Shown here: in pieces, positions 22,441 through 58,971 of the stretch | Layout of the letters: each line of letters begins with the position of its first letter | Position numbering within the stretch: the first letter of the stretch is position 1 | Origin: Aurantiacibacter luteus | GTDB lineage: Bacteria > Pseudomonadota > Alphaproteobacteria > Sphingomonadales > Sphingomonadaceae | NCBI RefSeq assembly: GCF_001010945.1 | Contig: NZ_LBHB01000002.1 | Span: 620,001-684,000 of the forward strand | Direction: 5' to 3' | DNA length: 64,000 bases | The notes under the pieces: model-generated | Databases searched by the model: none | What the model was told of the DNA's origin: nothing | The model's input: only the letters and a program-made list of their open reading frames with translations | Translations under genes and position numbers: made by a program

Positions 22441-22677
22441 CTTTTATATTCCTCAATCGCCGGCGGGGCATCCGCCCCTTGGCTTTCCGCGCGGCGACGC
22501 GCGACGCGCAGTCGCGCTTGCGGTCGCTGAAGCGACCGGACCGGCGCACGGCTTGACGTAAAGTGCTGCGAACGGGCGGCACAGCCGACCGCAAGGCCGA
22601 CCGGCCGCCCGCAGCGGCGCAGCTATGCTGCGCGTCTAGCGAGGACGAGCCCGCGCAAGGCGGGCTCGCACTCAAAA
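22441..22677. repeat. Spacer between capsid and connector genes: two inverted copies of the two-hairpin repeat
   Basis: This 237-nt spacer holds no gene. Its left half is a minus-strand copy: hairpin 1 is GCGC-GACT-GCGC at 22506-22517 between TTGC (22518-22521) and the g6 side, and hairpin 2 is at 22465-22478. Its right half is a plus-strand copy: GCAA at 22591-22594, stem GGCC at 22595-22598 with 22603-22606, GCCCGCAG at 22607-22614, GCGAGG at 22639-22644 and a 9-bp hairpin 2 at 22646-22668. Further palindromes lie at 22523-22538 and 22617-22633. The left copy leads into the g6 ribosome site; the right one ends next to the capsid stop codon. Confidence 0.8.
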
Positions 22678-23853
22678 TCACGCCTCGATCTTCAGCAGCT
22701 TGATCGCCGAGCTGTCGAGCACCTGCCCGCCCACGCGCTTGGTGGCGTAGAAGTGGACGAAGGGCTTGTTGGTGAACGGATCGCGCAGGATCTGCGTGGC
22801 CGAGCGTTCGGCGATCAGGTAGCCGGCGCGGAAGTTGCCGAAGGCGATGGGGAAGGCGCCCGCGCCCACGTCCGGCATGTCCTCGGCCTCGACCACCGGG
22901 TAGCCCAGCAGGCGATCGGGCTGGCCTTCGATCAGGCCCGGCTGCCACAGGAACGCGCCGTCGGTGGTCTTGAGCTTGCGGACCTCCGAAAGCGTTGCGG
23001 AGTTCATCACCCAGCTCGCGCCTTGGCGGTGGCCGGCCTTCATCGTGTGGACGAGGTCGATCAGCCGTGCCTCGGGCGCCGCGTCGAAGCCGTCGGCATC
23101 GCCCGAGCCGATGTACTGCAGCGTGCCGAAGGTGCGCACCGCGTCACCCGCCATGCTGGTCGGCGCGGAGAGGAAGCCGCGCGGCTGGTTGATGCCGTTG
23201 CCCTTGACGAAGGCCGCACCCTCGGCGCGGGCGAACTCCATGGCGATTTCGCTCGCCAGCCACGCCTCGAGGTCGAAGGCGGCATCGTCGAGCATCGACT
23301 GGCTCGCCGCCGGATTGGCGTAGAGCTCGCCGGTGGGCGGGGCGATTTCGGCGAATTCCGGCGTGTCGGTTTCCGGACGGGCACCGGTCTCGCCGACCCA
23401 GCCCGAAGCGGTGCCGCCGGTGGTGACGAGCTTGCGATAGCCGCTGGTGCCGACCTGCACGACCTGGGCGATGGCGCGGATGGGCGAGATGTCCTTCAGC
23501 TCGCTGGCGATCATCGCGTCGATCTCGCGCGGCACGGCATAGCCGCCATCCTTGGCCACCGCGCCGCTGATCGACTTGACCTCGGTCTCGCGGCCGCGGC
23601 GCAGGTAGCCGTCGACGAAGCCCTTGACCTCGGCGCTCGGCTCGCCCGAGCCCTCGCCGATGACGGGGCGCACGGCGGCGCGGCCCATGCGGTCGAGCCG
23701 GGCCTTCACCTCGTCCACGTCGGAGCGCAGGGCCTTGACCTCGGACTCGGTCTTGTCCTGGCGGGCGACGAGATCGAAGCTCTGGGTCAGCGGATCGGCG
23801 AGCGGGTCCACCGCGGCACCGATGACGGTCTGGGAGGGGATCTGGATATCCAT
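22678..23853 (-). CDS. GTA major capsid protein, HK97 family (g5-type)
   Basis: The ~391-residue product has an N-terminal coiled-coil delta region (ARQDKTESEVKALRSDVDEVKARLDRM) that is cut off during maturation, then the HK97 capsid body: GGYAVPREIDAMIASELKDISPIRAIAQVV, FVKGNGINQPRGFLSA, WVMNSATLSEVRKLKTTDG and the C-terminal FVHFYATKRVGGQVLDSSAIKLLK. An ATG at 23880 is in frame, but AAAGG lies upstream of the ATG at 23853 and none precedes the former, so I start at 23853. A strong hairpin abuts the stop. Confidence 0.9.
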   Translation of the reverse strand: MDIQIPSQTVIGAAVDPLADPLTQSFDLVARQDKTESEVKALRSDVDEVKARLDRMGRAAVRPVIGEGSGEPSAEVKGFVDGYLRRGRETEVKSISGAVAKDGGYAVPREIDAMIASELKDISPIRAIAQVVQVGTSGYRKLVTTGGTASGWVGETGARPETDTPEFAEIAPPTGELYANPAASQSMLDDAAFDLEAWLASEIAMEFARAEGAAFVKGNGINQPRGFLSAPTSMAGDAVRTFGTLQYIGSGDADGFDAAPEARLIDLVHTMKAGHRQGASWVMNSATLSEVRKLKTTDGAFLWQPGLIEGQPDRLLGYPVVEAEDMPDVGAGAFPIAFGNFRAGYLIAERSATQILRDPFTNKPFVHFYATKRVGGQVLDSSAIKLLKIEA

Positions 23854-23955
23854 AGGGGGAATTACCTTTCGATGGGACATGCAAAGGCGCGCTCCAGCGC
23901 AGGCTGGAACGTCGAGGGGAATCGAACCGGCCTGCGCCGGAAAGGAATGAGGGGG

Positions 23956-24345
23956 TCAGGCGATCAGGTGAATCCTGGCGCCGTGCTGGAGCGGGTGGGT
24001 GACGAGGCTGACCTCGAACAGGTCGATGTCCTCCAAGACGCGTCCTGCTTCCGAGCGGCGAAAGCCCCGTGCGCGGTAGCCGAAGCTGAGACCGTTGACC
24101 GCCTTGCCCAGCAGCATAGCGACCGCGCGGCTGTCGGGATTATCGATGCTGGCGACAACGCGCAGGCCTTTCTCATCCTCCTCCGCGCGCTCGACCCAGC
24201 CGATGCGCTGGTCGGGGCGGTGCTGCCAGTAGAGCGGGATGGCCTCGCGCCGTTCGCTCAGCGTCCGGCGAAAGGCGCCTGGTTGGATCGTGTCGCGCGC
24301 GCCGTCGGGTACGTCGAACAGGGCGGCATAACCGGCGATTCTCAT
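23956..24345 (-). CDS. GTA prohead protease (g4-type)
   Basis: The 129-residue U35/HK97-type serine protease trims the capsid during maturation. The sequence has GYAALFDVPDGARDTIQPGAFRRTL, the catalytic region PLYWQHRPDQRIGWV (His), and GLSFGYRARGFRRSEAGRVLEDIDLFEVSLVTHP (Ser and second His). The length is short for the family, as in other GTAs. Its start overlaps the upstream stop (ATGA). Confidence 0.87.
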   Translation of the reverse strand: MRIAGYAALFDVPDGARDTIQPGAFRRTLSERREAIPLYWQHRPDQRIGWVERAEEDEKGLRVVASIDNPDSRAVAMLLGKAVNGLSFGYRARGFRRSEAGRVLEDIDLFEVSLVTHPLQHGARIHLIA

Positions 24346-24650
24346 CGCAGCAGTTCCCCGACGCCGAGGCGCACGGCGATGCCGATCAGCAGCAGAGCGC
24401 CGACGCCGCGCACCAGCCACTCCACGGCGGCCTTCCACGCGCTGGCCTTGGCCGCGCGCCAGGCGCCGAGAAGGTCGCGCAGCTCATCGAGGTCGTCCTG
24501 CGCATTATCGTCGCCCAGCCCCAGCCGGTCGAGCGTGCGCCGCGCGCCGATCTCGCTCGCTTCCTCTACGATGGCGCGCAGGGTGACAAGATCGGTCCCG
24601 GTCGTTTGCGCTTGCACCATGAGCGCCGCCAGCATGTCCTGCCGCATCAT
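24342..24650 (-). CDS. Small GTA protein with C-terminal membrane helix (g3.5 position, DUF6127-like)
   Basis: The 102-residue protein has an N-terminal helical part (MLAALMVQAQTTGTDLVTLRAIVEEASEIGARRTLDRLGL) and a C-terminal hydrophobic helix (WLVRGVGALLLIGIAVRLGV). It lies between portal and protease with ATGA overlaps on both sides, the place of g3.5 in the R. capsulatus GTA. I believe it belongs to a small family seen in sphingomonad GTAs; its function is unknown. Confidence 0.7.
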   Translation of the reverse strand: MMRQDMLAALMVQAQTTGTDLVTLRAIVEEASEIGARRTLDRLGLGDDNAQDDLDELRDLLGAWRAAKASAWKAAVEWLVRGVGALLLIGIAVRLGVGELLR

Positions 24651-25801
24651 TTCGCGTCTCCCTGCTTCAGGCCGAGCATGGCCCGCTTCTCCTCGTCCGA
24701 GAGGAAGGTGGCGGCGGTCACCTGCGCCCACAGCTTCTCGCGGTCCTCGGCGAGCGCGGCCACGCGGTCGAGATCGATGGCGAGGTCGAGGCCGGGGAAC
24801 CACGGCTCCAGCCCTTCCTGCAGGCCTTCGAGAATCTTGCCCGCCAGCGGCAGCAGCGTGAGCCGCCACAGCGCGCGGTTGGCCTCGCGGTAGTTCGAGT
24901 AGGTCGCGTCGCCCGGCAGACCGAGCAGCATCGGCGGCACCCCGAAGGCGAGCGCGATGTCGCGGGCGGCGGCGGCCTTCAGCTCGGCGAAGTCCATGTC
25001 GGCGGGCGAGAGCGACAAGCTCTGCCACTTGAGCCCGCCTTCGAGCAGCATGGGCCGGCCGGCATTGCCGCCGCCCTGGTAGGCGGCTTCCAGCTCGCGC
25101 TTCAGCCGCTCGAACTGTTCGGTGGTGAGGCCCATGGCCTCGCCGCCCTCGTAGACCAGCGCGCCGCTGGGCCGCGCCGCGTTCTCCAGCAGCGAGCGGT
25201 TCCATTCGCTGGCCGCGTTGTGCACCGCCACTGCCTGCTCCGCGGCGGAGAGGCAGCCCGCGCCGTAGTGGTCGTCCGCCGGATGGAAGCTCTTGAGGTG
25301 GATGACCGAGGGCCAGCCGTCTTCGTCCTCCACCGGCAGCTCCAGCGTGCGATCGCCCAGCTTGTAGCGGTAGGCCGCGGGCCAGCCGTCCGCTCCCGGC
25401 ACCACGCTGATGCGCTCTGGCCTGAGGGCGAACAGTTCGACCGGTAGCCCCGCCCCGTCACGGGCAACCTGTACGAAGCCGTTGCCGTGCAGCAGCATCT
25501 GCGCCGCGAGCGTCTCCAGCAGGCCCTGCCCGGCAGAGGTCCGCCGCACCAGCGCAGCGGCCGCCTCGTGCGTCGAGAAGAGCGGCGCGCTGCCCACGCC
25601 CTCGGCCACGATCCGCACCGCCCGCTGCGCCACCGGATTGGCGAGGTAGGCGTGGCGAACGGCACCACGATAGTCAAACGGCAACCGCGCGCCGCCGCTC
25701 TCATAGGCCCAGCCCCAGGGCGACTGGAACGCGCGGGCGATGGGCACACGCTCGCTCGCCCCGCCCTTGAAGGCGGAGCGCAGGTTTTCGAGAAATGACA
25801 T
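24647..25801 (-). CDS. GTA portal protein, HK97 family (g3-type)
   Basis: The 384-residue portal forms the DNA entry ring. Typical segments are PFDYRGAVRHAYLANPVAQRAVRIVAEGV, LLHGNGFVQVARDGAGLPVELFALRPERISVV, AVAVHNAASEWNRSLLENAARPSGALVY and FGVPPMLLGLPGDATYSNYREANRALWRLTLLPL. The start is preceded by GATTGAGGAGATAACG, a strong ribosome site that belongs to a copy of the dispersed repeat. Confidence 0.9.
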   Translation of the reverse strand: MSFLENLRSAFKGGASERVPIARAFQSPWGWAYESGGARLPFDYRGAVRHAYLANPVAQRAVRIVAEGVGSAPLFSTHEAAAALVRRTSAGQGLLETLAAQMLLHGNGFVQVARDGAGLPVELFALRPERISVVPGADGWPAAYRYKLGDRTLELPVEDEDGWPSVIHLKSFHPADDHYGAGCLSAAEQAVAVHNAASEWNRSLLENAARPSGALVYEGGEAMGLTTEQFERLKRELEAAYQGGGNAGRPMLLEGGLKWQSLSLSPADMDFAELKAAAARDIALAFGVPPMLLGLPGDATYSNYREANRALWRLTLLPLAGKILEGLQEGLEPWFPGLDLAIDLDRVAALAEDREKLWAQVTAATFLSDEEKRAMLGLKQGDAK

Positions 25802-25974
25802 CGTTATCTCCTCAATCGCCGGCGGGCCCGTCCGGGCCCTTGGCTATCCTCGCCTGAATCCCTCCGCTTCGCTGCGGGGCGGCTGCGGGCGCGCAGTCGC
25901 GCTTGCGGTCGCCGGGCGACCGGGGATTCGGCAGCATTCGGTATTAATGGGTGGGCGGCTGGCGAAGAGTTCGC
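25802..25974 (-). repeat. Copy of the two-hairpin repeat between terL and portal
   Basis: Read on the minus strand: GCAA at 25906-25903, stem GCGC/GCGC (25902-25899 with 25894-25891) around loop GACT, then GCCCGCAG (25890-25883), GCGAGG (25853-25848), and hairpin 2, a 7-bp GGGCCCG-type stem at 25839-25824. It runs directly into the ribosome site of the portal gene. The rest of the 173-nt spacer has no gene. Confidence 0.8.
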
Positions 25975-27306
25975 TCAAAACCCCCGCACCCGCGGCGCCC
26001 CGCGCTTGCCCAGCATGAGCTCGGTCAGCGCCCAGACCAGCGCGTCCGCCCGGTCGGGCGAGCGGCCCGGGCCTTCGTAGCTGCCGCCGGTCATCAGGCC
26101 GCAGAGCTGGTCTTCCAGCTTGCCGAACATGCCGACGTGGATCACCCTGCCCGTCTCGTAGAGCGCGGCGACGGGCTCGGCGCGGGCTGCCTTGCCGCGG
26201 CTGGCGTGGACCAGCTGCACGGGCATGGCTGCGTCCACCGCGTGGAGGACGCTTCGTACCATGTCGCCGCCCTGGTTGGCCTCGGCCACCACGCGGTCGG
26301 CATTCCAGTCGAGCGCCGCGCGGGCGACCTCGCGCGACCAGCGTTCCGGGCTGGGGCGGCGGATCGAGCAGTCGGCGACCACCTTGGCGCGCCCCTCCTC
26401 GGTCAGCCCAACCACCACGATGCCGCATTCGTCCCCGCGCGAGGAGGCGGGCGGATCGACGCCGACCACCACCCGCACAAAACCCTCGAGGTTCACCTCC
26501 TCGCGGCAGCGTTCCAATAGCGTGCGGCTCCACAGCGCGCCTTCCACGTCGGTCAGCAGTTCGCCGCTCAGCTCCTGCCGGCCGATGGCGGTGTGGCCGT
26601 AACGCATGCGGATGTCGCGCACGAAGCGGTGCGGCAGGTTGTCCGCGTTGTCGAAGGTGCTGCCGCGCACCAGTGCCACCTCGCCGCGCTCCGCCTCGGC
26701 GAAGAGGCGCAGCAGCAGCGGCGTGGCGCGCGGCGTCGTGGTGGCGAGCGCCTGCGGCTGTTCGCCCAGGCGCAGGCCCATGACGAGGTTGTCCCAGGTC
26801 TCCAGCGCGCGGCCCGCCTCCCACTTGCCGATCTCGTCGCACCAGGCGTGGCTGTGCTGCGGGCCGCGCAGCGTTTCCGGCTCGCCCGCCGAATAGAGCA
26901 GGGCCTGCGCGCCGGTGGCGAATGTCAGCCGGCGGAGCGACGGCTCCCAGGTCACCCGGCGGCGACGGCGGCGCATGCAGGCGAGCACGCCGCTCTCGCC
27001 CTCCACCATCACCGCGCGCGCCTCGCCCAGCGAACTGCCGACGAGCGCGATGCGCGCATCGGCGTCCGCCGCGGCGAGCTGGCACACCCATTCCGCGCCC
27101 GCCCGGCTCTTGCCGAAACCGCGCCCGGCGCAGACCAGCCAGGTCGACCAGTCGCCTGCGGGCGGTTGCTGTTCGGGCCGCGCCCAGACCTTCCAGTAGC
27201 GTTTGAGCGCGCGCTGCTCCTCCAGCGCCAGCGAGCGGATCAGTTCGGCGCGCGCCGGCTGCGGCTGCGCGGCGAGCCAGTCGCGCAGCGCCGCGATGCT
27301 AGTCAT
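25975..27306 (-). CDS. GTA terminase large subunit (g2-type)
   Basis: The 443-residue packaging ATPase/nuclease has Walker A CAGRGFGKSRAGAE (about residues 58-71), a Walker B-like AWCDEIGKWE, the coupling motif ATTTPRAT, and a nuclease part with VGVDPPASSRGDECGI, RVVAEANQGGD and PDRADALVWALTEL. All key acidic residues appear present, so it looks functional. It overlaps the small-terminase-like gene by 8 nt. Confidence 0.9.
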   Translation of the reverse strand: MTSIAALRDWLAAQPQPARAELIRSLALEEQRALKRYWKVWARPEQQPPAGDWSTWLVCAGRGFGKSRAGAEWVCQLAAADADARIALVGSSLGEARAVMVEGESGVLACMRRRRRRVTWEPSLRRLTFATGAQALLYSAGEPETLRGPQHSHAWCDEIGKWEAGRALETWDNLVMGLRLGEQPQALATTTPRATPLLLRLFAEAERGEVALVRGSTFDNADNLPHRFVRDIRMRYGHTAIGRQELSGELLTDVEGALWSRTLLERCREEVNLEGFVRVVVGVDPPASSRGDECGIVVVGLTEEGRAKVVADCSIRRPSPERWSREVARAALDWNADRVVAEANQGGDMVRSVLHAVDAAMPVQLVHASRGKAARAEPVAALYETGRVIHVGMFGKLEDQLCGLMTGGSYEGPGRSPDRADALVWALTELMLGKRGAPRVRGF

Positions 27307-27745
27307 AGGCGGGCGTCATCATGCCGTCCTCGGCCAGCAGCTTCTGCGTGGCGATCTGGCGTTCGCGCATCTTGTCGAGCTTGGCGGTGAGCGAGGCGAG
27401 GATGGCTTCCTCGTCCTCGTCCTCGTCCAGCGCGCGCTGCTGGCTCACCTCGTCGCGGTGGGCGAGCAGCAGGCGGATGGCGGCGGCATTGTCGTACTTG
27501 GTCTTCTCGGTCGGGCGCTGGCCCTTGCGCAGGCGGCGCAGCAGTTCGAGCTCGAGATTGTCGTAGCCCTCGCACAGGGCGCGGCGCCACTGGCGGGCGA
27601 ATTCGCGGTCCTTGCGGCGGGCGGCATAGGCGGTGCTGGCGGAGATGCCGGCGGCCTTGGCCGATGCCGTGACATTGCTGCTTTCGGCGAGCTTTTCCAG
27701 GAACGGCGCGATCCAAGCGGCGCGTTCGGCGATCCCGTCGTTCAT
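27299..27745 (-). CDS. GTA small terminase-like HTH protein (g1 position)
   Basis: The 148-residue protein has an N-terminal helix-turn-helix (SNVTASAKAAGISASTAYAARRKDREFARQW) and a helical body ending in an acidic coiled region (RALDEDEDEEAILASLTAKLDKMRERQIATQKLL). Position and fold fit the DNA-recognising small terminase. The ATG at 27745 follows GGAGGGG. A second gene of the same family lies at 59200-59709. The first gene of the GTA transcript sits behind a terminator-like hairpin. Confidence 0.8.
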   Translation of the reverse strand: MNDGIAERAAWIAPFLEKLAESSNVTASAKAAGISASTAYAARRKDREFARQWRRALCEGYDNLELELLRRLRKGQRPTEKTKYDNAAAIRLLLAHRDEVSQQRALDEDEDEEAILASLTAKLDKMRERQIATQKLLAEDGMMTPAYD

Positions 27746-27971
27746 CGTCGACCCCTCCGGTTGCTGCGACAGGGCAAACACGAAAAAGGGCCGCGCCGGA
27801 GTTTCCGGGGCCGCCCTTCGATTCGCACCATCGCGATGTTCCGCTTCTCTAACCAGAGAGCGTCACGATGTCAATACAAAAGTGCCATATAGGTTCGTTT
27901 GTTGGACTTGCGCGGTGTGCGCCTCTGCCCTAGTGCGCCCCATCTTCCATTAAATATGGGTCACGCGCGCG
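27746..27971. promoter_or_regulatory. Divergent control region of the GTA cluster and the YqaA-like gene
   Basis: This 226-nt region has a lower G+C stretch (27860-27960) that should hold the promoters. I see no clear -35/-10 pair. It contains one GANTC methylation site (27820-27824) and one TTAA (27950-27953), but no TTAA-N7-TTAA CtrA box. Confidence 0.5.
27783..27816 (-). terminator. Terminator-like hairpin in the leader of the GTA transcript
   Basis: Read on the minus strand, a 13-nt arm (27816-27804) pairs with a second arm (27800-27788) at 11 of 13 positions around a 3-nt loop, followed by TTTTT (27787-27783). On the plus strand no T tract follows, so it is directional. The neighbouring gene is divergent, so there is no upstream gene for it to end; it lies ~38 nt before the first GTA gene. 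Confidence 0.7.
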
Positions 27972-28622
27972 ATGATGGGTTGGATCCGCAGTCTCTACGA
28001 CTGGACGATGGCCAAGGCCGCACACCCGCACGCGCAGTGGTGGCTGGCGTTCTTCGCCTTTGTCGAATCCTCGTTCTTCCCCATCCCCCCGCATCCGCTG
28101 CTGGGGCTGATGTGTCTTGCCGAGCCGAAGAAGGCGATCCGCTTCGCCTTCATCTGCACGGCCTTCTCGGTGCTGGGCGGCCTGTTCGGCTATGCCATCG
28201 GGTATTTTCTCTATGACGCGGTGGGGGCCTGGCTGCTCGGCGCGCTCGGCCTGACGGACAGCTTCGCGCCCGCCGCCTGCTACCTGCGCGAGCACGACTG
28301 GGAGGTGATCGTCGTCGCCGGCACGACCCCCGTGCCCTTCAAGCTGCTGACCATTACCGCGGGCTTCATCCACATGAACCTCGCCACCTTCACGCTCGCC
28401 GCCATCGCCGGGCGCGGGCTGATCTTCATGACCGTGGGCGTCCTGTTCCGCGTGTTCGGCGCCCCGATCAAGCGCTTCATCGACAAGTACCTCGGCACGC
28501 TGACCGCCGCCTTCGTGGTGCTGGTGATCGGCGGCTTCATCGCCTTTACCCAGCTCGCGGGCGGCGAGGGCGATACCGCTGCCGACGCCTGCGCCGCGGT
28601 GACCGAGGTGCAGCCCGGCTGA
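27972..28622 (+). CDS. YqaA/DedA-like inner-membrane protein (VTT domain)
   Basis: The 216-residue protein has four to five hydrophobic segments and the VTT-type motifs FAFVESSFFPIPPHPLLGLMCLAEPKKA and VVAGTTPVPFKLLTITAGFIHMNLATFTLAAIAGRG. DedA-superfamily proteins are linked to lipid scrambling and envelope homeostasis; the role of this YqaA branch is not established. Two adjacent ATGs mark the start. It is divergent from the GTA cluster. Confidence 0.85.
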   Translation: MMGWIRSLYDWTMAKAAHPHAQWWLAFFAFVESSFFPIPPHPLLGLMCLAEPKKAIRFAFICTAFSVLGGLFGYAIGYFLYDAVGAWLLGALGLTDSFAPAACYLREHDWEVIVVAGTTPVPFKLLTITAGFIHMNLATFTLAAIAGRGLIFMTVGVLFRVFGAPIKRFIDKYLGTLTAAFVVLVIGGFIAFTQLAGGEGDTAADACAAVTEVQPG

Positions 28623-28689
28623 TCGCAGCCGAGGAACGCTCCGCGCATCCTGACGGTTGAGGGGGGGACGCGGCAACAGGGGAGCGAGC

Positions 28690-33674: not shown

Positions 33675-33698
33675 GGTTCCGGGTAAGATCGTCCGGCC

Positions 33699-47265: not shown

Positions 47266-47275
47266 TGGCGAGGAG

Positions 47276-49090: not shown

Positions 49091-49261
49091 AGTAGGGGGC
49101 TGGCAGGCACCGACCGGTCCGCGACCAGCGAACCGCAAGGGCGACCGCCCGCCCGCAGCGGGCACGCAGGCCGAAATTTTCTCTGGGCGGAGTGCGTCTA
49201 GCGAGGGAGTCGCAGACGGCGCGTAGCGCCACCCGAGCGCGGAGGCGGGAGCGAAAAACAA
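49091..49261 (+). repeat. Copy of the two-hairpin repeat in the leader of the adenosyltransferase gene
   Basis: The gap of 171 nt holds no gene. Hairpin 1 is GCAA (49135-49138), stem GGGC/GCCC (49139-49142 with 49147-49150), loop GACC, GCCCGCAG (49151-49158). GCGAGG lies at 49201-49206 and hairpin 2 (GGCGC-GTA-GCGCC) at 49218-49230. It ends 31 nt before the next start. No cobalamin riboswitch is recognisable, though the gene is cobalamin-related. Confidence 0.78.
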
Positions 49262-49828: not shown

Positions 49829-49877
49829 CGGGAACGCGACTCCCACGCCCGCCGTTGAGGCGGCGAAGGAGTTCACC

Positions 49878-50234: not shown

Positions 50235-50237
50235 GCC

Positions 50238-50654: not shown

Positions 50655-50710
50655 GAGGCAAACCTAACGGCTGGGCGCAGCGGCGCAACCGGGCGCGCGA
50701 GCAAGGATTG

Positions 50711-53326
50711 TCAGTCGGCCGCCTCGCGCTTCAACCTGTAGAGCATTTCCAGCGCCTCGCGCGGGCTCAGCGCGTCGACGTCCACCTCCGCGAGCAGGTC
50801 GCGCAGGGTGTCGCACTGTTCCTCCTCGGCCTGAAAGGCGGCGGCGAACAGCGGCAGGTCGCCGAGCCCCGCCGCCAGCCCGCCCGTTTCCGCGCGCCCC
50901 TTCTCCAGCTTGTCCAGCACCGAGCGTGCGCGCTTCACCACCGCCTCGGGCACGCCCGCGAGCTTCGCAACGGCGAGGCCGTAGCTGCGGTCCGCCGCGC
51001 CCTCGGCCACCTCGTGCAGCAGGACGAGGTCGCCCTTCCACTCGCGCGCGCGGACGTGGTGGAGGCTCAGCGCCTCGCAGCTTTCCGCCAGCCGCGCCAT
51101 TTCGTGATAGTGGGTGGCGAACAGGCAGCGGCAGCGGTTGGTTTCGTGGATGGCCTCGGCCACGGCCCATGCGAGCGCGAGGCCATCGTAGGTAGAGGTT
51201 CCGCGCCCCACCTCGTCGAGGATGACGAAGCTGCGCGGCCCTGCCTGCTGCAGGATTGCGGCGGTCTCGACCATCTCGACCATGAAGGTGGAGCGCCCGC
51301 GCGCGAGATTGTCCGAGGCGCCGACGCGGCTGAAGAGCTGGTCGACGAGGCCGATCCGCGCGGCCTTGGCGGGTACGAAGCCGCCCGCCTGTGCGAGCAG
51401 CACGATCAGCGCGTTCTGCCGCAGGAACGTGCTCTTGCCGCCCATGTTGGGCCCGCCGACCAGCCACAGCCGGTCATGCTCGCCCAGCGCGCAGTCGTTG
51501 GCGACGAAACGCTCGCCGCCCTTCGAGAGCGCCGCCTCGACCACCGGATGCCGCCCCGCCTCGATGGCGAGCGCCGGCTCGTCGACGATCTCCGGCTGGC
51601 ACCATTCGCCTTCGCTCGCCCGCTCGGCCTGTCCCGCCGCGACGTCGAGACGGGCGAGCGCGGCGGCGGTGGCGGCCACGGCTTCGCGCCGCTGCGCCAC
51701 CCGCTCCACCAGGTCCTCGAAATGCGCGTCCTCCGCCGCCTGCGCGTGGCCGCCCGCCTCGGCAATGCGGCTCGCTTCCTCGTGCAGGGTGAGCGAGTTG
51801 AAGCGCACGACGTTGGCCATGGTCTGGCGGTGGGTGAAGCCGCTCTCGGGCGCCATCAGCTTGTCGGCGTGCTTGCTCGGCACCTCGATGAAATAGCCGA
51901 GCACGCCGTTGTGGCGAATCTTCAGCGCGGGCGTGCCGGTCTCGTCGCGGTAGCGGGCCTCCATCGCGGCGATGGCGCGGCGGGCATTGCCGGAAACCTC
52001 GCGAAGCTCGTCGAGCGCATGGTCGTAGCCTGCCGCGATGAATCCGCCGTTCTGCCGCTCGGTGGGCGGCGCGGGCACCAGCGCGCGCCCGAGGAGGTCG
52101 GTCAGTTCGGCATGGCCGGTCAGCGCAGGCAGCAGGCCGTCGAGCAGCGCGGGCCGGTCGGCCTTGCCCTTCAGCACGTCGTGCACCCGCCGCGCCTCGA
52201 TCAACCCGTCGCGCACCTGCCCGAGATCGCGTGGGGAGCCGCGTCCCGCCACAAGCCGCCCGAGCGCGCGGCCGAGGTCGGGCAGGGCGCGCAGCAGGCT
52301 CCGCAGGTCGGCGCGCAGCAACGGGTCGCGGTGCAACCACCCGACGAGCGACAGCCGCGCCTCGATGCTCGCGCGATCCACCAGCGGCGCAGCGAGGTCT
52401 TCCGCCAGCAGCCGTGCGCCCGCCCCGGTCACGCAGCGATCGATGGCGGCGATCAGGCTCCCGGCGCGCCCGCCCTGCTGGCTGGCGAGGATCTCGAGGC
52501 TGGCACGCGTCGCCTCGTCCATCGCCATGTGCTCGCCCGAGGCACGCGCCACGGGCGGCAGTAGCAGCGGCAGCGTTCCGCGCCCGGCGTGGTCGAGATA
52601 GGCGAGGAGGCCACCTGCCGCCGCCAGCATGGCGCGCGAGAACTGGCCGAACCCGTCGAGCGTCGCCACGCCGTGCACCGACTTTAATCGCGCCTCGCCG
52701 CCCTCGCTGGCGAAGTCCGCGCGCGGGCGCGCCACGGCCTCCAGCGGTGCCTCGGTCCAGTCCTCGGGTGCCACGCACTCGCTCGCCCCCACGCGTGCCA
52801 GCGCCGCGCCCAGCCGCTCGGGCGCACATTCCTCCAGCACCATCGCGCCGGTCGAGATGTCGACCGAGGCCACTCCGCACACGCCGCGCAATTCGCACAC
52901 GGCGGCGAGCACGTTCGCCCGGCGCGGTTCGAGCAGCGCCTCCTCGGTCAGCGTGCCGGCGGTGACGAAGCGCACGATGTCGCGCCGCACCAGCGCCTTC
53001 GAGCTCGGCGTGCCCTCGCGCTTGGCCCGTGCGCGCGCCTCGTCCGGCGTTTCCACCTGCTCGGCGATGGCGACGCGGCAGCCGGCCTTGATCAGCCGCG
53101 CGAGGTAGCCTTCGGCCGCGTGCACCGGCACCCCGCACATCGGCACCGGATCGCCGCCGTGCTCGCCGCGGGCTGTCAGCGCGATGTCGAGCACCTGCGC
53201 CGCGGTCCGCGCATCGTCGAAGAACAGCTCGAAGAAGTCGCCCATGCGGTAGAACAGCAGGCAGTCGCCGGCCTCGGCCTTCAGGCCAAGGTACTGCTGC
53301 ATCATCGGGGTGGGCTGGGCTGTCAT
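50711..53326 (-). CDS. mutS: DNA mismatch repair protein MutS
   Basis: The 871-residue protein has the mismatch-binding motif FYRMGDFFELF (Phe-x-Glu) near the start, the connector and lever domains, and the C-terminal ATPase: Walker A GGPNMGGKSTFLRQ, then SRVGASDNLARGRSTFMVEM, Walker B SFVILDEVGRGTSTYDG and ATHYHEM. The ATG at 53326 gives the standard lead MTAQPTPMMQQYLGLK. It recognises mispairs and recruits MutL. It is divergent from maeB. Confidence 0.95.
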   Translation of the reverse strand: MTAQPTPMMQQYLGLKAEAGDCLLFYRMGDFFELFFDDARTAAQVLDIALTARGEHGGDPVPMCGVPVHAAEGYLARLIKAGCRVAIAEQVETPDEARARAKREGTPSSKALVRRDIVRFVTAGTLTEEALLEPRRANVLAAVCELRGVCGVASVDISTGAMVLEECAPERLGAALARVGASECVAPEDWTEAPLEAVARPRADFASEGGEARLKSVHGVATLDGFGQFSRAMLAAAGGLLAYLDHAGRGTLPLLLPPVARASGEHMAMDEATRASLEILASQQGGRAGSLIAAIDRCVTGAGARLLAEDLAAPLVDRASIEARLSLVGWLHRDPLLRADLRSLLRALPDLGRALGRLVAGRGSPRDLGQVRDGLIEARRVHDVLKGKADRPALLDGLLPALTGHAELTDLLGRALVPAPPTERQNGGFIAAGYDHALDELREVSGNARRAIAAMEARYRDETGTPALKIRHNGVLGYFIEVPSKHADKLMAPESGFTHRQTMANVVRFNSLTLHEEASRIAEAGGHAQAAEDAHFEDLVERVAQRREAVAATAAALARLDVAAGQAERASEGEWCQPEIVDEPALAIEAGRHPVVEAALSKGGERFVANDCALGEHDRLWLVGGPNMGGKSTFLRQNALIVLLAQAGGFVPAKAARIGLVDQLFSRVGASDNLARGRSTFMVEMVETAAILQQAGPRSFVILDEVGRGTSTYDGLALAWAVAEAIHETNRCRCLFATHYHEMARLAESCEALSLHHVRAREWKGDLVLLHEVAEGAADRSYGLAVAKLAGVPEAVVKRARSVLDKLEKGRAETGGLAAGLGDLPLFAAAFQAEEEQCDTLRDLLAEVDVDALSPREALEMLYRLKREAAD

Positions 53327-53450
53327 CGCTTGGCATTCACGCCTAGCGGGGCGCGAAGCGATTCGGGAAGGGCAGGGCGCGGCCCTATCCCCTATCGCTC
53401 CCGCCAAAGCCTCTCTATGGCTGAGTCCGAGAGCAAGGAGAGGCGCACAG

Positions 53451-55715
53451 GTGGCCGAAGAGAAGACCAGCAGTTTCACGGCGCGCGAAGCGCTGTTCTA
53501 CCACGAGACCATCCGGCCCGGTAAGATCGAGATCATCGCCTCCAAGCCGATGACGACGCAGCGCGACCTCAGCCTCGCCTATTCGCCGGGCGTCGCCGTG
53601 CCGGTGGAGGCCATCGCCGCCGATCCCGCCTGCGCCGCGCGCTACACCGCCCGCTCCAACCTCGTCGCCGTCATTTCCAACGGCACCGCCATCCTCGGCC
53701 TCGGCAACCTCGGCGCGCTGGCATCGAAGCCGGTGATGGAAGGCAAGGCGGTGCTGTTCAAGCGCTTCGCCGACGTCGATTCCATCGATATCGAGCTCGA
53801 CACCGAGGACCCCGAGGCCTTTATCAACGCGGTCGCGCTGATGGAGCCGAGCTTCGGTGGCATCAACTTGGAAGACATTGCCGCGCCCGAATGCTTCATC
53901 ATCGAGCAGGCGCTGCGCGAGCGGATGAATATCCCCGTCATGCACGACGACCAGCACGGCACGGCGATCATCGCGGCGGCGGGTCTCATCAACGCCTGCT
54001 ACCTCACCGGCCGCGACCTCAAGGACGTGAAGATGGTGGTGAACGGCGCGGGCGCCTCGGCGCTCGCCTGCACGGCGCTGATCAAGTCGGTCGGCGTGCC
54101 GCACGAGAACGTGATCGTGTGCGACCGCTCCGGTCCGATCTACCCGGGCCGCGAGGGCGTGGACCAGTGGAAGAGCGCGCACGCCGTGCCCACCGACGCG
54201 CGCACGCTGGAGGAAGCGCTGGCGGGCGCGGACATCTTCCTCGGCCTCTCCGCCGCGGGTGCGCTGAAGCCCGAGTGGGTGGCGGCGATGGCCGACCAGC
54301 CGATCATCTTTGCCATGGCCAATCCCGTGCCCGAGATCATGCCGGAGGAGGCGCAGGCCGTGCGCCCCGATGCCATCATCGCCACCGGCCGCAGCGACTA
54401 CCCCAACCAGGTCAACAACGTGCTGGGCTTCCCCTTCATCTTCCGCGGCGCGCTCGACGTGCGGGCGACCGCGATCAACGAGGAGATGAAGGTCGCCGCC
54501 GCGAGAGCCATCGCCGAGCTGGCGCGCGAGCGGGTGCCCGAAGAAGTCGCCGCGGCCTACGGCGTCAACCACCAGTTCGGGCGCGAATACATCATTCCGG
54601 CGCCCTTCGATCCGCGCCTGATGGAGCGCGTTTCGTGCGCGGTGGCCAAGGCGGCGATGGATTCGGGCGTGGCGCAGGATCCCATCGAGGATTTCGAAGC
54701 CTATGCGCTCAAGCTGCGCAGCCGCCTCAATCCCACCACCTCGGCGCTCACCCGCGTCTACGAGGATGCCAAAGCCAATCCCAAGCGCATGGTCTTCGCC
54801 GAGGCGGAGGAGGAGGTGGCCCTGCGCGCCGCGATCCAGTTCCGCGACTTTGGCTACGGCACGCCGATCCTGGTGGGCCGCACGGAAAAGGTGCTCGAGA
54901 AGCTGGAGGAGCTCGGCGTCGATGATCCCGAGAGCTTCGAGATCGAGAACTCGAATACCTCCGAGCACATCGAGCCGATGGTCGATTTCCTCTACAAGCG
55001 GCTGCAACGACGCGGGTATACGGAACGCGACGTGCGCCGCATGGTGAACCAGGAGCGCAACGTCTTTGCCGCCCTGCTGGTGGCGCTCGACATCGGCGAT
55101 GGGATGATCACCGGTCTCACCCGCACCTACGCCCAGTCGGCGCGCGAGATCGCCCGCGTGCTCGATGCCAAGCCCGGCGCGACGCCCTTCGGCGTGCACA
55201 TGGTAATCGGAAAGAACCACACGACCTTCCTCGCCGACACCACGATCAACGAGCGGCCCAGCGCCGAGCAGCTCGCCCACATCGCCAAGGAAACCGCCGC
55301 CGTGGCGCGGCGCATGGGGCACGAGCCGCGCGTGGCCTTCCTGTCCTACTCCACCTTCGGCAACCCGCCCGGCCAGTGGCTCGGCAACATCCGCGACGCC
55401 GTGGCGATCCTCGATGCCGACGAGAGCGTGAACTTCGAGTACGAGGGCGAGATGGCGCCCGATGCGGCGCTCAACGAAAAGGTCATGGCGCTCTATCCTT
55501 TCAGTCGCCTGTCGGGCCCGGCCAACGTGCTGATCTTCCCCGGCCTGCAGAGCGCCAATCTCTCGGCCAAGCTGCTGCGCGAGCTTTCCGGCGACACCAC
55601 CATCGGGCCGATGATGATCGGCTCGGAAAAACCCGTGCAGATCGCGCCCATGACATCGATCGCGCCCGACATCCTCACGCTCGCCGTGCTGGCGACGGCC
55701 GGCGTGGTGGGCTGA
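53451..55715 (+). CDS. maeB: NADP-dependent malic enzyme with phosphotransacetylase-like C-terminus
   Basis: The 754-residue multi-domain enzyme decarboxylates malate to pyruvate. The N-terminal half has PGKIEIIASKPMTTQRDLSLAYSPGVAVP, the metal-ligand region VMHDDQHGTAIIAAAGL, and the NAD(P) motif VVNGAGASALAC. The C-terminal half (from ~430) is a PTA-like domain (MVFAEAEEEVALRAAIQF ... SANLSAKLLRELSGDTTIGPMMIG) that regulates activity. The start is a GTG at 53451 with GGAGAGG before it; the frame extends upstream without features. Confidence 0.93.
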   Translation: MAEEKTSSFTAREALFYHETIRPGKIEIIASKPMTTQRDLSLAYSPGVAVPVEAIAADPACAARYTARSNLVAVISNGTAILGLGNLGALASKPVMEGKAVLFKRFADVDSIDIELDTEDPEAFINAVALMEPSFGGINLEDIAAPECFIIEQALRERMNIPVMHDDQHGTAIIAAAGLINACYLTGRDLKDVKMVVNGAGASALACTALIKSVGVPHENVIVCDRSGPIYPGREGVDQWKSAHAVPTDARTLEEALAGADIFLGLSAAGALKPEWVAAMADQPIIFAMANPVPEIMPEEAQAVRPDAIIATGRSDYPNQVNNVLGFPFIFRGALDVRATAINEEMKVAAARAIAELARERVPEEVAAAYGVNHQFGREYIIPAPFDPRLMERVSCAVAKAAMDSGVAQDPIEDFEAYALKLRSRLNPTTSALTRVYEDAKANPKRMVFAEAEEEVALRAAIQFRDFGYGTPILVGRTEKVLEKLEELGVDDPESFEIENSNTSEHIEPMVDFLYKRLQRRGYTERDVRRMVNQERNVFAALLVALDIGDGMITGLTRTYAQSAREIARVLDAKPGATPFGVHMVIGKNHTTFLADTTINERPSAEQLAHIAKETAAVARRMGHEPRVAFLSYSTFGNPPGQWLGNIRDAVAILDADESVNFEYEGEMAPDAALNEKVMALYPFSRLSGPANVLIFPGLQSANLSAKLLRELSGDTTIGPMMIGSEKPVQIAPMTSIAPDILTLAVLATAGVVG

Positions 55716-55739
55716 CCGAGGCTCGCCGGGCGGGTGCGC

Positions 55740-56468
55740 TCAACGCCTGCGGAAGCGGAAGTACCAGACCTCGTGGCCGTAGACCGTGCGGGCCTTGTGC
55801 TCGTAGCGCGTCTCGGACCAGCCGGAGGGGCGGTTGCGGAAGCCATCCGGCCCCTCGATCACCCATTCGAACGGCGCGTCCGGCCCGCTGGTGAAGCGGC
55901 GCATCACCATCAGCGCATGCCGCACGTAGACCGGGTGGTCGGTGCCAAAACGCAGTTCGCCGCCCGGCTTCAGCTTGTCCGCCATCAGCCGCACCGGCCC
56001 GTCGTTCATCATCCGCCGCTTGGCGTGCCGGGCCTTGGGCCAGGGGTCGGGGTGGAGGAGGTAAATCATCGTCAGCGCACCGTCGGGCACGCGGGCGAGA
56101 ATCTCCAACGCGTCGCCGTGGTGCATGCGGACATTGGCGAGCCGCCCGCCGCCCTCATGTCCGTCGCGCACGTGCACCAGAGCCTGCGCGACGCCGTTCA
56201 GGAACGGCTCGGCGCCGATGAAGCCGTGGTCGGGCAGCAGGTCGGCGCGGTAGGCGAGGTGCTCGCCGCCGCCGAAGCCGATCTCGAAGTGCAGTGGGCG
56301 CTCGTCGCCGAACAGCGCGGTCGATGTTACCGGGCCATTCGCTGGCACGGCGATCTGCGGCAGCAGCGTCTCGACGAGGTCGGCCTGCGCGGCGCGCAGC
56401 GGCTTGCCGTGGCTGCGCCCGTACAGCCGCCCCAGCGTGGTCGGATCGCCTTCCTTGTTCGCGCTCAT
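55740..56468 (-). CDS. trmB: tRNA (guanine-N7)-methyltransferase
   Basis: The 242-residue SAM enzyme modifies G46 of tRNA. Motifs: LYGRSHGKPLRAAQADLVETLLPQ, LHFEIGFGGGEHLAYRADLLPDHGFIGAEPF (SAM site), MIYLLHPDPWPKARHAKRRM (catalytic PDPWPKxRHxKRR) and a final YEHKARTVYGHEVWYFRFRR. The ATG at 56468 is chosen because MSANKEG begins the family region. It converges with maeB. Confidence 0.94.
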   Translation of the reverse strand: MSANKEGDPTTLGRLYGRSHGKPLRAAQADLVETLLPQIAVPANGPVTSTALFGDERPLHFEIGFGGGEHLAYRADLLPDHGFIGAEPFLNGVAQALVHVRDGHEGGGRLANVRMHHGDALEILARVPDGALTMIYLLHPDPWPKARHAKRRMMNDGPVRLMADKLKPGGELRFGTDHPVYVRHALMVMRRFTSGPDAPFEWVIEGPDGFRNRPSGWSETRYEHKARTVYGHEVWYFRFRRR

Positions 56469-56560
56469 GGGCGCGCCTCTAGCGAGCAAGGGAGAGCTTT
56501 GCCAGTCATCGCGCAGACCCGCCGTTCAGCGTTCCGGCGCTGTAGGACAGCGGATTCGCG

Positions 56561-57325
56561 TCAGCCCCAGGCCGTCCACACGCCATAGGCGCTGGTGACC
56601 GTCAGCACGATGCCCACGAGGATCAGCATGAGCTTGGGGCTGAAGTGCTTGGCGGCAAAGGCACCGATGGGCGCGGCCACGATGCCGCCGATCAGCAGGC
56701 CCAGCGTCGCCCCGGCGAGGTCGGCCACGCCGAGATGGAAGATGAAGGTGGCCGAGACCGCCACGGTCAGGAAGAATTCCGCCGAGTTGACCGTCCCCAC
56801 GACCTTGCGCGGATCGGCACCCTGGATCAGCAGGTTGCTCGTTACCACCGGCCCCCAGCCGCCGCCGCCCGCGGCATCCAGGAAACCGCCGACCAGTCCC
56901 AGCGGGGCGACGTGCTTTGCCACCTTCTGCTTGGGCGGATAGAACAGGCCGCGCACCAGCAGGTAGATGCCGATGCCGGCGAGGTAGATCAGCACGAAGG
57001 GTTTCACCACCGAGGCATCGATGGAGCTGAGCAGGTAGGCCCCCGTCACCCCGCCGATGACCCCGGGAATCACCAGCCGGGCGAACAGCGCCTTATCGAT
57101 GTTGCCGTTCAGCAGGTGGCTGATGCCGCTGGTGGCGGTGGTGAAGCATTCGACCACATGGACGCGCTGGCTGGCGAGTGCCGGGGGCACGCCCAGCAGG
57201 CCGACCAGCAGCGTGTTGCAGATCACCCCGAAGGCCATGCCCAGCGCGCCGTCCACCAGTTGCGCGGCGAAGCCGATGAGGATGAATGGCAGGAGCGCCG
57301 TGAGGTCGATACCGAGAACTTCCAT
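56561..57325 (-). CDS. TSUP-family permease (TauE/SafE, YfcA-like)
   Basis: The 254-residue inner-membrane protein has about eight hydrophobic segments and the paired TSUP motifs: FAAQLVDGALGMAFGVICNTLLVGLLGVPPALASQRVHVVE, and GLVGGFLDAAGGGGWGPVVTSNLLIQGADPRKVVGTVNSAEFF. Substrates of this group are sulfite, sulfoacetate or similar organosulfur anions; here none is indicated. The ATG at 57325 is placed by MEVLGIDL, just before the first helix. Confidence 0.9.
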   Translation of the reverse strand: MEVLGIDLTALLPFILIGFAAQLVDGALGMAFGVICNTLLVGLLGVPPALASQRVHVVECFTTATSGISHLLNGNIDKALFARLVIPGVIGGVTGAYLLSSIDASVVKPFVLIYLAGIGIYLLVRGLFYPPKQKVAKHVAPLGLVGGFLDAAGGGGWGPVVTSNLLIQGADPRKVVGTVNSAEFFLTVAVSATFIFHLGVADLAGATLGLLIGGIVAAPIGAFAAKHFSPKLMLILVGIVLTVTSAYGVWTAWG

Positions 57326-57431
57326 CGGGCAGGCGCTTTCGAGCAGTTGCGTCGGCCCGCAAGTAGCCGCGCGCAAATCACCCGGCGAGAAGGATTTTCT
57401 TTATCGGCACCGCGGCCGTTCCTTTTTGCGC

Positions 57432-57857
57432 TCAGGCGGCGCGGGCGAGCGCCGGATTGATTGCCGGGGCCACCCGGCGCTGCTCGCGGACCTCGTCCAG
57501 CAGGGCGATGAGCTGGCGCGGCCTGACCGGCTTCTGCACCAGCCGGTCGGCGATCGGGTCGCCCCCGAGCGCGGCGAGGCGGGCGATGTCGTACCCGGTC
57601 ACCAGCATGGTGGTCATGCCGGGATAGTCGCGGCCGATCGCGCGCAGCAGCTGGGTGCCGTCTTCGACGCCCTCCAGCGCATGGTCGACGAAGGCCACGT
57701 CGGGCCGGCACTCGGCGAACATGCGCCGCGCGCCCGCTGCGCAGGCCGCTTCGCCGACGCCGGTGTGGCCGGCCGCGGCACAGATCTCGCGCAGCAGAAA
57801 GGTCATGATCGCATCGTCCTCGACGATGGCAACCCGCAGGCTTTCGCCCCGCTCCAT
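57432..57857 (-). CDS. Stand-alone response regulator receiver protein
   Basis: The 141-residue receiver has acidic pocket VEDDA, phosphoacceptor Asp58 in VAFVDHALEGVEDG, Thr in MLVTGYD and Lys in VQKPVRPRQL. It has no output domain, so it is a signal relay like DivK. The ATG at 57857 follows GGGGGATTGTCT; a GTG nine codons upstream is less likely. It lies 172 nt downstream of ctrA with a hairpin between. Confidence 0.87.
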   Translation of the reverse strand: MERGESLRVAIVEDDAIMTFLLREICAAAGHTGVGEAACAAGARRMFAECRPDVAFVDHALEGVEDGTQLLRAIGRDYPGMTTMLVTGYDIARLAALGGDPIADRLVQKPVRPRQLIALLDEVREQRRVAPAINPALARAA

Positions 57858-57968
57858 AGACAATCCCCCCGATGTCGATCCCACGACTTAGTGAGCGAGA
57901 GGAAGAAGGAATTCTATCGGGAGAAGCGCGTAGCCGACCCCGCCGCGGTGGAGATTGGCCGTGACGCA

Positions 57969-58001
57969 GGACGCCCGGCGGCGCGTAGCCACCGGGCGTC
58001 C
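57969..58001. other. Strong hairpin between ctrA and the stand-alone receiver
   Basis: A perfect 10-bp stem (57969-57978 with 57992-58001) with an inner 3-bp extension encloses a short loop. It lies 29 nt after the ctrA stop. No T tract follows on the minus strand, so it may be a Rho-linked end or a 3' stability element. Confidence 0.55.
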
Positions 58002-58029
58002 TTCAAAACCCCGTCCAGGGCTAGGAATT

Positions 58030-58725
58030 TCAGGCGGCGACCTGTTCGGCCTCCGGGTCGCGCAGCACGTAGCCGCGGCCCCACACGGTCTCGATGTAGT
58101 TGTCCCCGCCGCACGCGCTCGACAGCTTCTTGCGCAGCTTGCAGATGAACACGTCGATGATCTTGAGTTCGGGTTCGTCCATGCCGCCGTAGAGGTGGTT
58201 GAGGAACATTTCCTTGGTCAGCGTGGTGCCCTTGCGGAGCGAAAGCAGCTCCAGCATGGCGTATTCCTTGCCGGTCAGGTGGACCCGCGCGCCGTCGACC
58301 TCGACGGTCTTGGCATCGAGGTTCACCGCCAGCTTGCCGGTGCGGATGACCGACTGGCTGTGGCCCTTGGAGCGGCGGACCACGGCGTGAATGCGGGCGA
58401 CCAGCTCGTCGCGGTGGAAGGGCTTGGTGACGTAGTCGTCCGCGCCGAAACCGAAGGAGCGGATCTTCGAGTCCATCTCGGCGATGCCCGACAGGATCAG
58501 AACCGGCGTCTGCACCTTGGCGACGCGCAGCTTCTTGAGCACGTCGTATCCGTGCATGTCGGGCAGGTTCAGGTCGAGCAGGATGATGTCGTAATCATAG
58601 AGCTTGCCCAGATCGAGGCCTTCCTCGCCCAGGTCCGTCTGGTAGACGTTGAAGCCTTCGGCCGTCAGCATCAGCTCGATCGCCTTGGCGGTGGTCGGCT
58701 CGTCTTCGATCAACAGAACGCGCAT
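58030..58725 (-). CDS. ctrA: Cell-cycle response regulator CtrA
   Basis: The 231-residue OmpR-class regulator has an N-terminal receiver with Asp51 ([15 protein letters not shown]), Lys in [12 protein letters not shown], and a winged-helix output ([54 protein letters not shown]) that is near identical to CtrA throughout alphaproteobacteria. It ends with -Ala-Ala, as does the ClpXP-degraded Caulobacter protein. It controls division, motility and, in Rhodobacter, GTA expression. TTAA-rich DNA, a GANTC site and a dispersed repeat lie upstream. Confidence 0.96.
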
Positions 58726-58876
58726 CTTTGGAACCCCTTTGTCCCCGTTCGGTAACCCCCGGTAAAGGGGTGTTGCCGCGAATTAACCACGAGCCTTGTC
58801 ACCGAAAAAGGTTAACAATGGGTTTCACGCGTTAAGACTTTCTGGGTGAGTCCTTTGGGTGACAGTTTTGGTTTTG

Positions 58877-58971
58877 CGTTTCCGCCTCCGCGGAAACGTC
58901 CTCGGCGCTGTTCTCTCCGCCGGGGCTGCGCTCCGGCTGCGAGGCGCCTGCGGGCGGCCGTTCGGCCTTGC
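58877..58971 (-). repeat. Copy of the two-hairpin repeat in the ctrA upstream region
   Basis: Read on the minus strand: GCAA (58971-58968), stem GGCC/GGCC (58967-58964 with 58959-58956) around loop GAAC, GCCCGCAG (58955-58948), GCCGAGG (58906-58900), then hairpin 2, a perfect 9-bp stem (58898-58890 with 58885-58877, loop GGAG). It points towards ctrA, 150 nt away. Confidence 0.78.

Follow-up and report, generated by a model that had tools for sequence, protein, structure and literature searches.

What kind of element is the hairpin-forming repeat that recurs five times within a 64,000-nucleotide stretch (the window) of the genome of Aurantiacibacter luteus, and what keeps the arms of its hairpins paired while their sequences change? 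The initial annotation described a dispersed two-hairpin repeat with compensatory base changes, proposed a selected structure rather than simple duplication, and suspected a local family of repetitive extragenic palindromic (REP) sequences. The compensatory pairing is strongly borne out against shuffled controls, both in the own genome and in relatives, and the stems stay paired genome-wide: the hairpin arms remain Watson-Crick complementary while their sequence changes. The sites of the repeat are partly common to species, yet the copies resemble those of their own genome. We tentatively regard the repeat as a lineage-specific composite palindrome of the Sphingomonadaceae, similar to REPs and to bacterial interspersed mosaic elements (BIMEs), paired at the DNA level, homogenized, and with a proposed role as a barrier at gene 3' ends; as a whole, this reading falls just short of an even chance.

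All five copies lie in the sequence where the initial annotation had placed them, with GCAA and the stem and loop variants of the first hairpin as it had listed them. The two hairpins it described are both present, but the unit is longer and its additional hairpins covary too. The unit is a string of hairpins (hp) of 100-130 bp that can be written hp0-GCAA-hp1-GCCCGCAG-middle hairpin-GCGAGGA-hp2. In the aligned copies hp0 is often GGTCGGC-GACNA-GCCGACC or GGNCC-GNA-GGNCC; hp1 has 4 bp and a loop that is mostly GACC, GAAC or GACT; and hp2 has 9 bp and a GGAN loop, followed by the A-rich tail CAAAACAAR (tail consensus of 132 copies). An automatic parse recovered an 8-9 bp stem with a 4-nt loop in 19 of 24 own-genome copies, and the other five (L012, L016, L017, L018 and L025) differ or are without such a hairpin. 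We regard such a string as one half of a larger head-to-head unit. Each half comprises four small hairpins, and a fifth, GCCCG-CAG-CGGGC, is possible by eye in type I, one of three types distinguished by their ends: type I ends in CTAGCGAGGA, type II has an outer GTGC/GCAC-like stem and CGAGGA, and type III carries AGCCAAG-hairpin-GCCGGCGATTGAGG or similar. In type I the middle loop, AGCGNAGCG, frequently includes GCGNAGC (N varies); the DNA mini-hairpins that this motif forms are known to be very stable. Some loops hold other palindromic repeats (such as ACCCCGGACTTGATCCGGGG; CCTGTCCTGAGCTTCGCCGAAGG or close variants), as though one hairpin had been inserted into another; the copies concerned are L141, L103, L118, L142 and L266, and the own-genome copies at C11:519298 and C1:101000 (contig and position).

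An exact pattern search of the genome (2.89 Mb, 22 contigs) gave 25 places, of which 24 are real and one (L001) is false, as judged from inspection of the flanks. A covariance model built from 19 of the pattern-found own copies (R1) gave 36 matches in the same genome at E <= 1 and 35 at E <= 0.01; together with one degenerate window copy recovered by a second covariance model (R2), the genome holds about 36 copies. Among 218 non-identical copies from the own genome (33 used), the relatives G002 and G003 and 80 named contigs, 133 are of type I, 61 of type II, 11 of type III and 13 untyped, proportions that are biased to type I by the choice of contigs through a type I pattern and of the G002 and G003 copies through a mainly type I model. 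The same 33 own copies served in the ortholog-site, identity, loop and nearest-neighbor, folding-strand, consensus and pair analyses; the weaker matches at C11:194803, C17:174223, C17:137502 and C11:114450 were omitted there, and of these C17:137502 adjoins C17:137374 head to head. Type labels followed a looser rule in the nearest-neighbor test and a corrected rule in the folding-strand and pair counts. The structural parse took 89 of 146 copies (79 type I and 10 type II), and the other 57 were read by eye.

The pairing far exceeds that of shuffled arms. In 19 own-genome rows (16 type I and 3 type II), 92.6% of 366 cells are paired versus 79.4% after shuffling, and two-sided changes occupy 41 cells versus 12.7; in 21 rows picked as type II, the corresponding values are 91.3% of 601 cells versus 73.8%, and 88 cells versus 28.4. 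The cleanest test rests on 80 copies retrieved through their linkers alone, with five hp2 pairs left free by the pattern. In these, 385 of 400 cells are Watson-Crick versus 217.7 shuffled, the free stem is fully paired in 71 of the 80 copies (G-U allowed), and 24 different five-base stems occur. hp0 covaries as well, with a mean stem score of 5.0 versus 2.4 for swapped halves (78 copies). Those linker positions of GCCCGCAG on which the parsing rule imposed nothing have the same base in 97-100% of the 79 type I copies. For the middle hairpin, the register used in R1 (54-58/70-74 plus 60-61/65-66) proved partly wrong, with 12 G-U, 15 A-C and 8 other oppositions among 119 cells of the own rows; register 52-55/69-72 gives 4 G-U, 3 A-C and no other among 64 cells.

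If an RNA transcribed from one strand were the object of selection, G-U pairs should exceed their mirror image, A-C. Counted at fixed positions, hp2 of the 80 copies has 3 G-U, 7 A-C and 5 other oppositions among 400 cells, and hp1 of 79 type I copies has 5, 2 and 4 among 316, which pooled gives 8 G-U and 9 A-C in 716 cells. Type II rows without hp0 have 7 G-U and 9 A-C in 460. When the parsed hp0 and middle stems are added to hp1 and hp2 the tally is 16 G-U, 16 A-C and 32 other among 1585, with a parser that requires Watson-Crick closing pairs for these two hairpins and for each of them detected nothing in 6 of 79 copies. In 14 tRNAs encoded at the same loci, the acceptor and T stems together hold 10 G-U and no A-C in 168 cells (compared with 8 and 9, p is 0.009 for the G-U/A-C ratio; for the G-U rate it is 5e-4). 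These tRNA cells were taken at fixed positions, which makes the fixed-position tally of hp1 and hp2 the fairer comparison. With reserve, we infer that complementarity is maintained in DNA. Quasipalindrome template switching, described as a known process in the part of PMC7202029 used here, could keep the arms complementary without selection. Because correction of palindromes at the DNA level would also give pairing without a clear preference for G-U, selection for an RNA fold is not required. The proposal of a selected structure rather than simple duplication was half right: pairing is kept, but the copies are dispersed and homogenized per genome.

The repeat mostly lies at gene 3' ends. The hp2 end faces the 3' end of a gene in 110 of the 138 copies that have a known neighbor (146 in total). 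Of 103 distinct element gaps, 50 are convergent, 49 same-strand and 4 divergent, and among 624 gaps without the element 76 are convergent and 117 divergent. The aligned end lies exactly 7 from the stop codon in 28 of the 110 3'-facing copies (28 of the 89 within 0-30); since the stop codon is immediately followed by the tail YTTGTTTTG, this places the hp2 stem 9 nt away. TAG is mildly enriched at this distance (13/28 versus 159/631, p 0.025). The idea that the element supplies a stop codon or truncates genes was rejected, the C-termini at the gap between the exoIII and cell-wall hydrolase genes being similar in length with and without it. In the consensus no T-tract follows hp2 on either strand, the flanks being CAAAACAAR on one and TCCTCGC on the other. 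A few elements follow tRNA CCA ends or terminator T-tracts, and L096, L145, L147, L084, L136 and the own copy at C11:557900 start at or a few bases from tRNA-like 3' CCA ends.

Adjoining copies stand head to head in 53 of 54 distinct pairs, in a count that leaves out 12 identical duplicate copies. Only 1 of 52 typed pairs joins two type I halves, versus 21.9 expected with free pairing of types, and each of the six pairs among the 33 own copies joins type I with type II or III. For many copies no partner was detected: 56 of 142 type I copies are in pairs, before identical copies are dropped. Since the models favor type I, missed partners are likelier to be of type II or III, and the deficit of I-I pairs is thus not an artifact of sensitivity. 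A head-to-head pair has long inverted ends (YTTGTTTTG-hp2-TCCTCG), with the hp2 ends outward.

Some of the sites recur between species. Among 104 genes that abut an element, 69 have a homolog that abuts one elsewhere in the sample, versus 25 of 692 other genes from the same loci. For 14 of the 33 own copies, an element in G002 lies beside some orthologous neighbor; by reading, 10 of the 33 occupy the same gene end in both genomes, and both neighbors are matched in 6. At the exoIII/cell-wall hydrolase gap, read by eye in the own genome and 16 relatives, 7 of the 17 genomes hold halves or pairs, 2 have remnants and 8 have other hairpins, and the gap between the phage-like capsid and connector genes has a similar mixture of states in the ten relatives read, with hairpins again judged by eye. 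At one gap, G002 and G015 carry terminator-like hairpins instead of the element (by eye). In nine same-end pairs, the ortholog takes a rank from 1 to 21 among all 40 copies of G002 and is first once, and the closest own copy is as close as or closer than the ortholog in all nine; in two of the nine (C17:5481 and C11:519298) the G002 half is of type II and the own half of type I. In the loop of hp2, own copies mostly read GGAG (27 of 33), as do those of G003 (29 of 41), whereas GGAT prevails in G002 (35 of 40). Nearest neighbors come from the same genome for 41 of 57 copies that were labeled type I and for 26 of 34 that were labeled type II (permutation p 0.001).

The family appears to be confined to a lineage. 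R1 detects the element in each of the 19 same-genus genomes searched, the own genome among them, at 1 to 54 copies per genome, and found no match in 12 genomes from other families of the order. Under strict filters it matches 83 of 199 genomes and 45 of 96 genera of the family, and R2 has matches in 11 of 118 genomes of the order, every one of them from this family; because filters were stricter in whole-family searches over 40 genomes, their counts are low. A pattern scan of named genomes gave at least 106 stretches, and among the 80 matches listed are Erythrobacter, Porphyrobacter, Aurantiacibacter, Qipengyuania, and other Erythrobacteraceae, Sphingomonadaceae, Sphingomonadales or alphaproteobacteria. 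The initial annotation had looked in the right neighborhood with a REP-like family, and in the comparisons made with Rfam, Y1 transposases, plasmids and phages no described repeat or mobile parent matched. Rfam gave three weak window matches up to E 5, none over a copy and all below gathering scores. No Y1 transposase (PF01797) was found in the own genome (G000) by a method that matched 8 of 14 control genomes, and among 16 relatives there was one, at G009:C39:1443-1772, which argues against a REP mobilized by a REP-associated tyrosine transposase (RAYT). A plasmid- or phage-borne element was likewise rejected, with no match in plasmid or phage records for the one copy searched against each. 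No title in a literature search described the family. In the part of PMC12306157 used here, a RepRanger scan that gives counts included Erythrobacter cryptus.

Within the window, the core GCAA-N4-GAMY-N4-GCCCGCAG, searched with up to two mismatches, has four matches, all exact (22591+, 25883-, 49135+ and 58948-). Chance origin was rejected, as dinucleotide shuffles average 0.32 matches and none of 100 reaches four. Two of the five copies are the halves of one head-to-head unit. Its type I half, C2 (22591-22677, plus strand; R1 E 9.8e-14 over 22567-22670), consists of GCAA at 22591-22594, hp1 at 22595-22606, the linker at 22607-22614, the middle hairpin at 22617-22633, hp2 at 22646-22668 and the tail at 22669-22677, with an imperfect hp0 at about 22574-22590. 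The tail abuts the stop codon of a capsid gene (22678-23853, minus strand; Pfam). None of 200 shuffles folds as well as C2 on either strand (z -3.96 on the plus and -6.37 on the minus strand). Its partner C1 (22462-22544, minus strand, equivalent to C11:642462-642544) is a degenerate type III half; as had been noticed, it diverges after hp1, which it retains, and is without GCCCGCAG. It is absent from the R1 list and weak in R2 (E 0.02), and its fold z-scores are -2.05 and -2.23. Its end extends to about 22441, meeting the ATG of a head-tail connector gene (21895-22440, minus strand).

C3 (25815-25930, minus strand; R1 E 6.9e-6 over 25845-25930) combines type I-like hp0, hp1 and linker with a type III end, AGCCAAG-hairpin-GCCGGCGATTGAGGAG, and is flanked by a terminase gene (25975-27306, minus strand) and the ATG of a portal gene (24647-25801, minus strand), with z-scores of -1.36 (minus) and -2.86 (plus). 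The second hairpin after GCGAGG or GCCGAGG, which the initial annotation took as usual, does not describe C1 and C3, whose type III ends reach a start codon. These genes belong to a minus-strand cluster at 12932-27306 with terminase, portal, capsid and connector genes (Pfam, four proteins scanned), which we take to be a likely gene transfer agent; its capsid has counterparts of 81-86% identity in 9 of 16 relatives and one of 45% in a tenth. C4 (49111-49255, plus strand) is a type I half with an extended middle loop, matched by R1 over 49111-49214 (E 3.8e-9), the remainder being a manual extension, and lies immediately upstream of the ATG of a cobalamin adenosyltransferase gene (49262, plus strand). 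The second hairpin had been called self-complementary in every copy, but in C4 hp2 is interrupted and the palindromic piece there is an insert, GGCGC-GTA-GCGCC; the whole copy folds no better than shuffles (z -0.07 and -0.50). C5 (58875-58995, minus strand; R2 E 3.6e-14; z -2.41 and -2.35) is a type II half with the outer middle stem GCGC/GCGC and GCCGAGGA. It lies between a response-regulator gene (58030-58725, minus strand) and a gene at 59200-59709 (minus strand), and belongs to an own-genome subfamily in which an inserted CCGGAGCGCAGCCCCGG is common to several loci.

We envisage the full unit as a head-to-head heterodimer in which a half of type I is joined to one of type II or III. Such a unit would follow a single gene or be enclosed by the 3' ends of two; many copies are single halves. 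Its complementarity may be kept by repair or replication that copies one arm from the other within a hairpin through template switching, and selection on a DNA hairpin or cruciform could act instead or in addition. Homogenization might proceed by gene conversion or by an enzyme that repeatedly copies the element into occupied sites. About 9 nt downstream of the stop codon, a transcript coming out of the gene would run into a rigid hairpin, and this could shield the 3' end from exonucleases and limit readthrough, as REPs do. REPs of Escherichia coli near stop codons are also known to affect ribosomes. Such a barrier function is suggested by the place of the element and by the reports on REPs in the part of PMC12306157 used here, and the comparison with terminators gives it no help.

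Several observations weigh against this reading. In hp1 and hp2 of the 19 own rows alone there are 6 G-U and no A-C among 247 cells, a small number and what selection on RNA predicts, which lowers our confidence in the DNA-level reading and raises it in an RNA. In RNA folding there is no preference for either strand, the given strand being the more stable in 125 of 217 copies, so that neither strand can be singled out as the RNA strand. Orthologs are 0.73-0.83 identical, close to the median of 0.74-0.80 inside the own genome, and the overall mean identities are 0.754 and 0.753 within a genome versus 0.737 between genomes; homogenization is accordingly partial. The hp2 end faces a 5' end in 28 of 138 copies, C3 and C4 sit before start codons, and the genes were called with a home-made program (by which 92% of the window is coding). 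Gaps with the element are no poorer in classical terminators, with 14 of 50 convergent gaps versus 11 of 43 and 13 of 49 same-strand gaps with the element versus 20 of 154 without, some of the matches in element gaps being the element's own hairpins; the notion that the element replaces intrinsic terminators finds no support in this comparison.

How do other explanations fare? It is possible, if doubtful, that the repeat is a bipartite DNA element with an obligate head-to-head arrangement of two different multi-hairpin halves. Its sites behind stop codons would then persist between species while the sequence is rewritten genome-wide in concert, and a copying activity other than a RAYT would keep its arms complementary at the DNA level. 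A non-autonomous selfish DNA akin to miniature inverted-repeat transposable elements (MITEs), with a transposase now absent or acting in trans and gene ends as the least harmful insertion sites, seems somewhat unlikely to us. The inverted ends, the dispersal in intergenic gaps, the turnover at the exoIII/cell-wall hydrolase gap and the subfamily with a common insert at several loci would all fit it, but Y1 transposases are missing from the own genome and 15 of 16 relatives (other transposase families were not searched), the single copies searched against plasmids and phages had no match, and random insertion would give neither so sharp a spacing of 9 nt nor so few I-I pairs.

That the element is a cis-acting RNA, either a terminator, an attenuator or a processing signal, selected on the transcript so that the compensatory changes reflect RNA folding, we consider unlikely. 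Its location behind stop codons and some tRNA 3' ends and between the capsid and connector genes of the phage-head cluster (relatives' gaps also have hairpins, by eye), the fold of C2 and the G-U excess in the own rows speak for it; the pooled copies, in which G-U is as rare as A-C whereas tRNAs from the same loci tolerate it, the lack of strand asymmetry in folding, the consensus without a T-tract and the lack of an Rfam match over copies speak against. A protein-binding DNA site, for gyrase or a nucleoid protein, for example, that would handle supercoiling between convergent genes is very unlikely, although a similar role has been proposed for the BIMEs of E. coli. Enrichment in convergent gaps, pairing without strand preference in the pooled copies and the nearly constant linkers are consistent with such a site, but 49 of the 103 element gaps lie between same-strand genes, and the stem sequences vary so freely that only linkers or shape could be recognized. 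We retain, as a tentative preference, the REP-like repeat paired at the DNA level, and covariation alone should be taken with caution as it is no proof of RNA: here pairing is kept, yet pooled G-U is no commoner than A-C.

In the parts of Di Nocera et al. (PMC3733652) used here, the ongoing formation of REPs without a dedicated transposase is left open and the preference for heterodimers is said to have no obvious explanation. The hairpin repeat makes both questions testable, through its several arms per unit, its biased type pairing, its species-matchable sites and the GGAG/GGAT loop marks that point to homogenization. S. wittichii, one of the species in which such repeats have been characterized, belongs to the same order as A. 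luteus. The comparisons below go as far as the portions of the cited papers used here. The CGTC REPs of alphaproteobacteria form mainly head-to-head dimers, with heterodimers common in some families, lie in convergent and same-strand gaps, have no dedicated transposase and comprise many families of 20-100 units; in S. wittichii most of those between convergent genes lie <=20 bp from the 3' ends (Di Nocera et al. 2013, PMC3733652). The hairpin repeat shares the head-to-head dimers, the heterodimers, the kinds of gap and the 3'-end proximity, and its hp2 has the 8-9 bp stem in 19 of 24 own copies. A CGTC REP, however, is one hairpin of 20-40 bp with a stem of 8-9 bp, a loop of 4-5 nt, A-T pairs at the first and second stem positions, an unpaired CGTC tag and in most cases a CCA tail (PMC3733652), whereas the hairpin repeat has four hairpins per half and no unpaired CGTC (or TGTC/CCTC), the hp2 flanks being mostly YTTGTTTTG and TCCTCGC, with the CG before TC paired; its first hp2 pair is C-G (fixed by the pattern), its second G-C in 76 of 80 copies and its tail CAAAACAAR.

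Other systems are more distant. GTAG REPs and BIMEs, which go with RAYT transposases (PMC3733652), are also palindromes at 3' gene ends in paired units, but the hairpin repeat has no unpaired GTAG (hp1 is flanked by GCAA and GCCCGCAG, hp2 by YTTGTTTTG and TCCTCGC, by eye) and no Y1 (RAYT) transposase was found in the own genome. The CIR repeats of Caulobacter reportedly go back to Chen and Shapiro in 2003. They are about 110 bp long and strictly intergenic, with two inverted-repeat arms, a linker and a conserved GANTC (PMC2229807, PMC10969869); compared by description only, the hairpin repeat is similar in length, intergenic, alphaproteobacterial and built of arms joined by a linker, but GANTC occurs in only 15 of 230 copies, at 0.65 per kb versus 0.98 in the window, and a CcrM-linked repeat was rejected on this lack of enrichment. 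Like bacterial MITEs (PMC2229807, PMC10969869), a pair of about 250 bp has terminal inverted repeats at both hp2 ends, although it is made of many short hairpins rather than one long stem and no parent was found among Y1 enzymes. In organization and place the hairpin repeat follows the REPs, but not in tag, tail or single hairpin, and it is therefore better described as a new variant than as a member of a known REP family.

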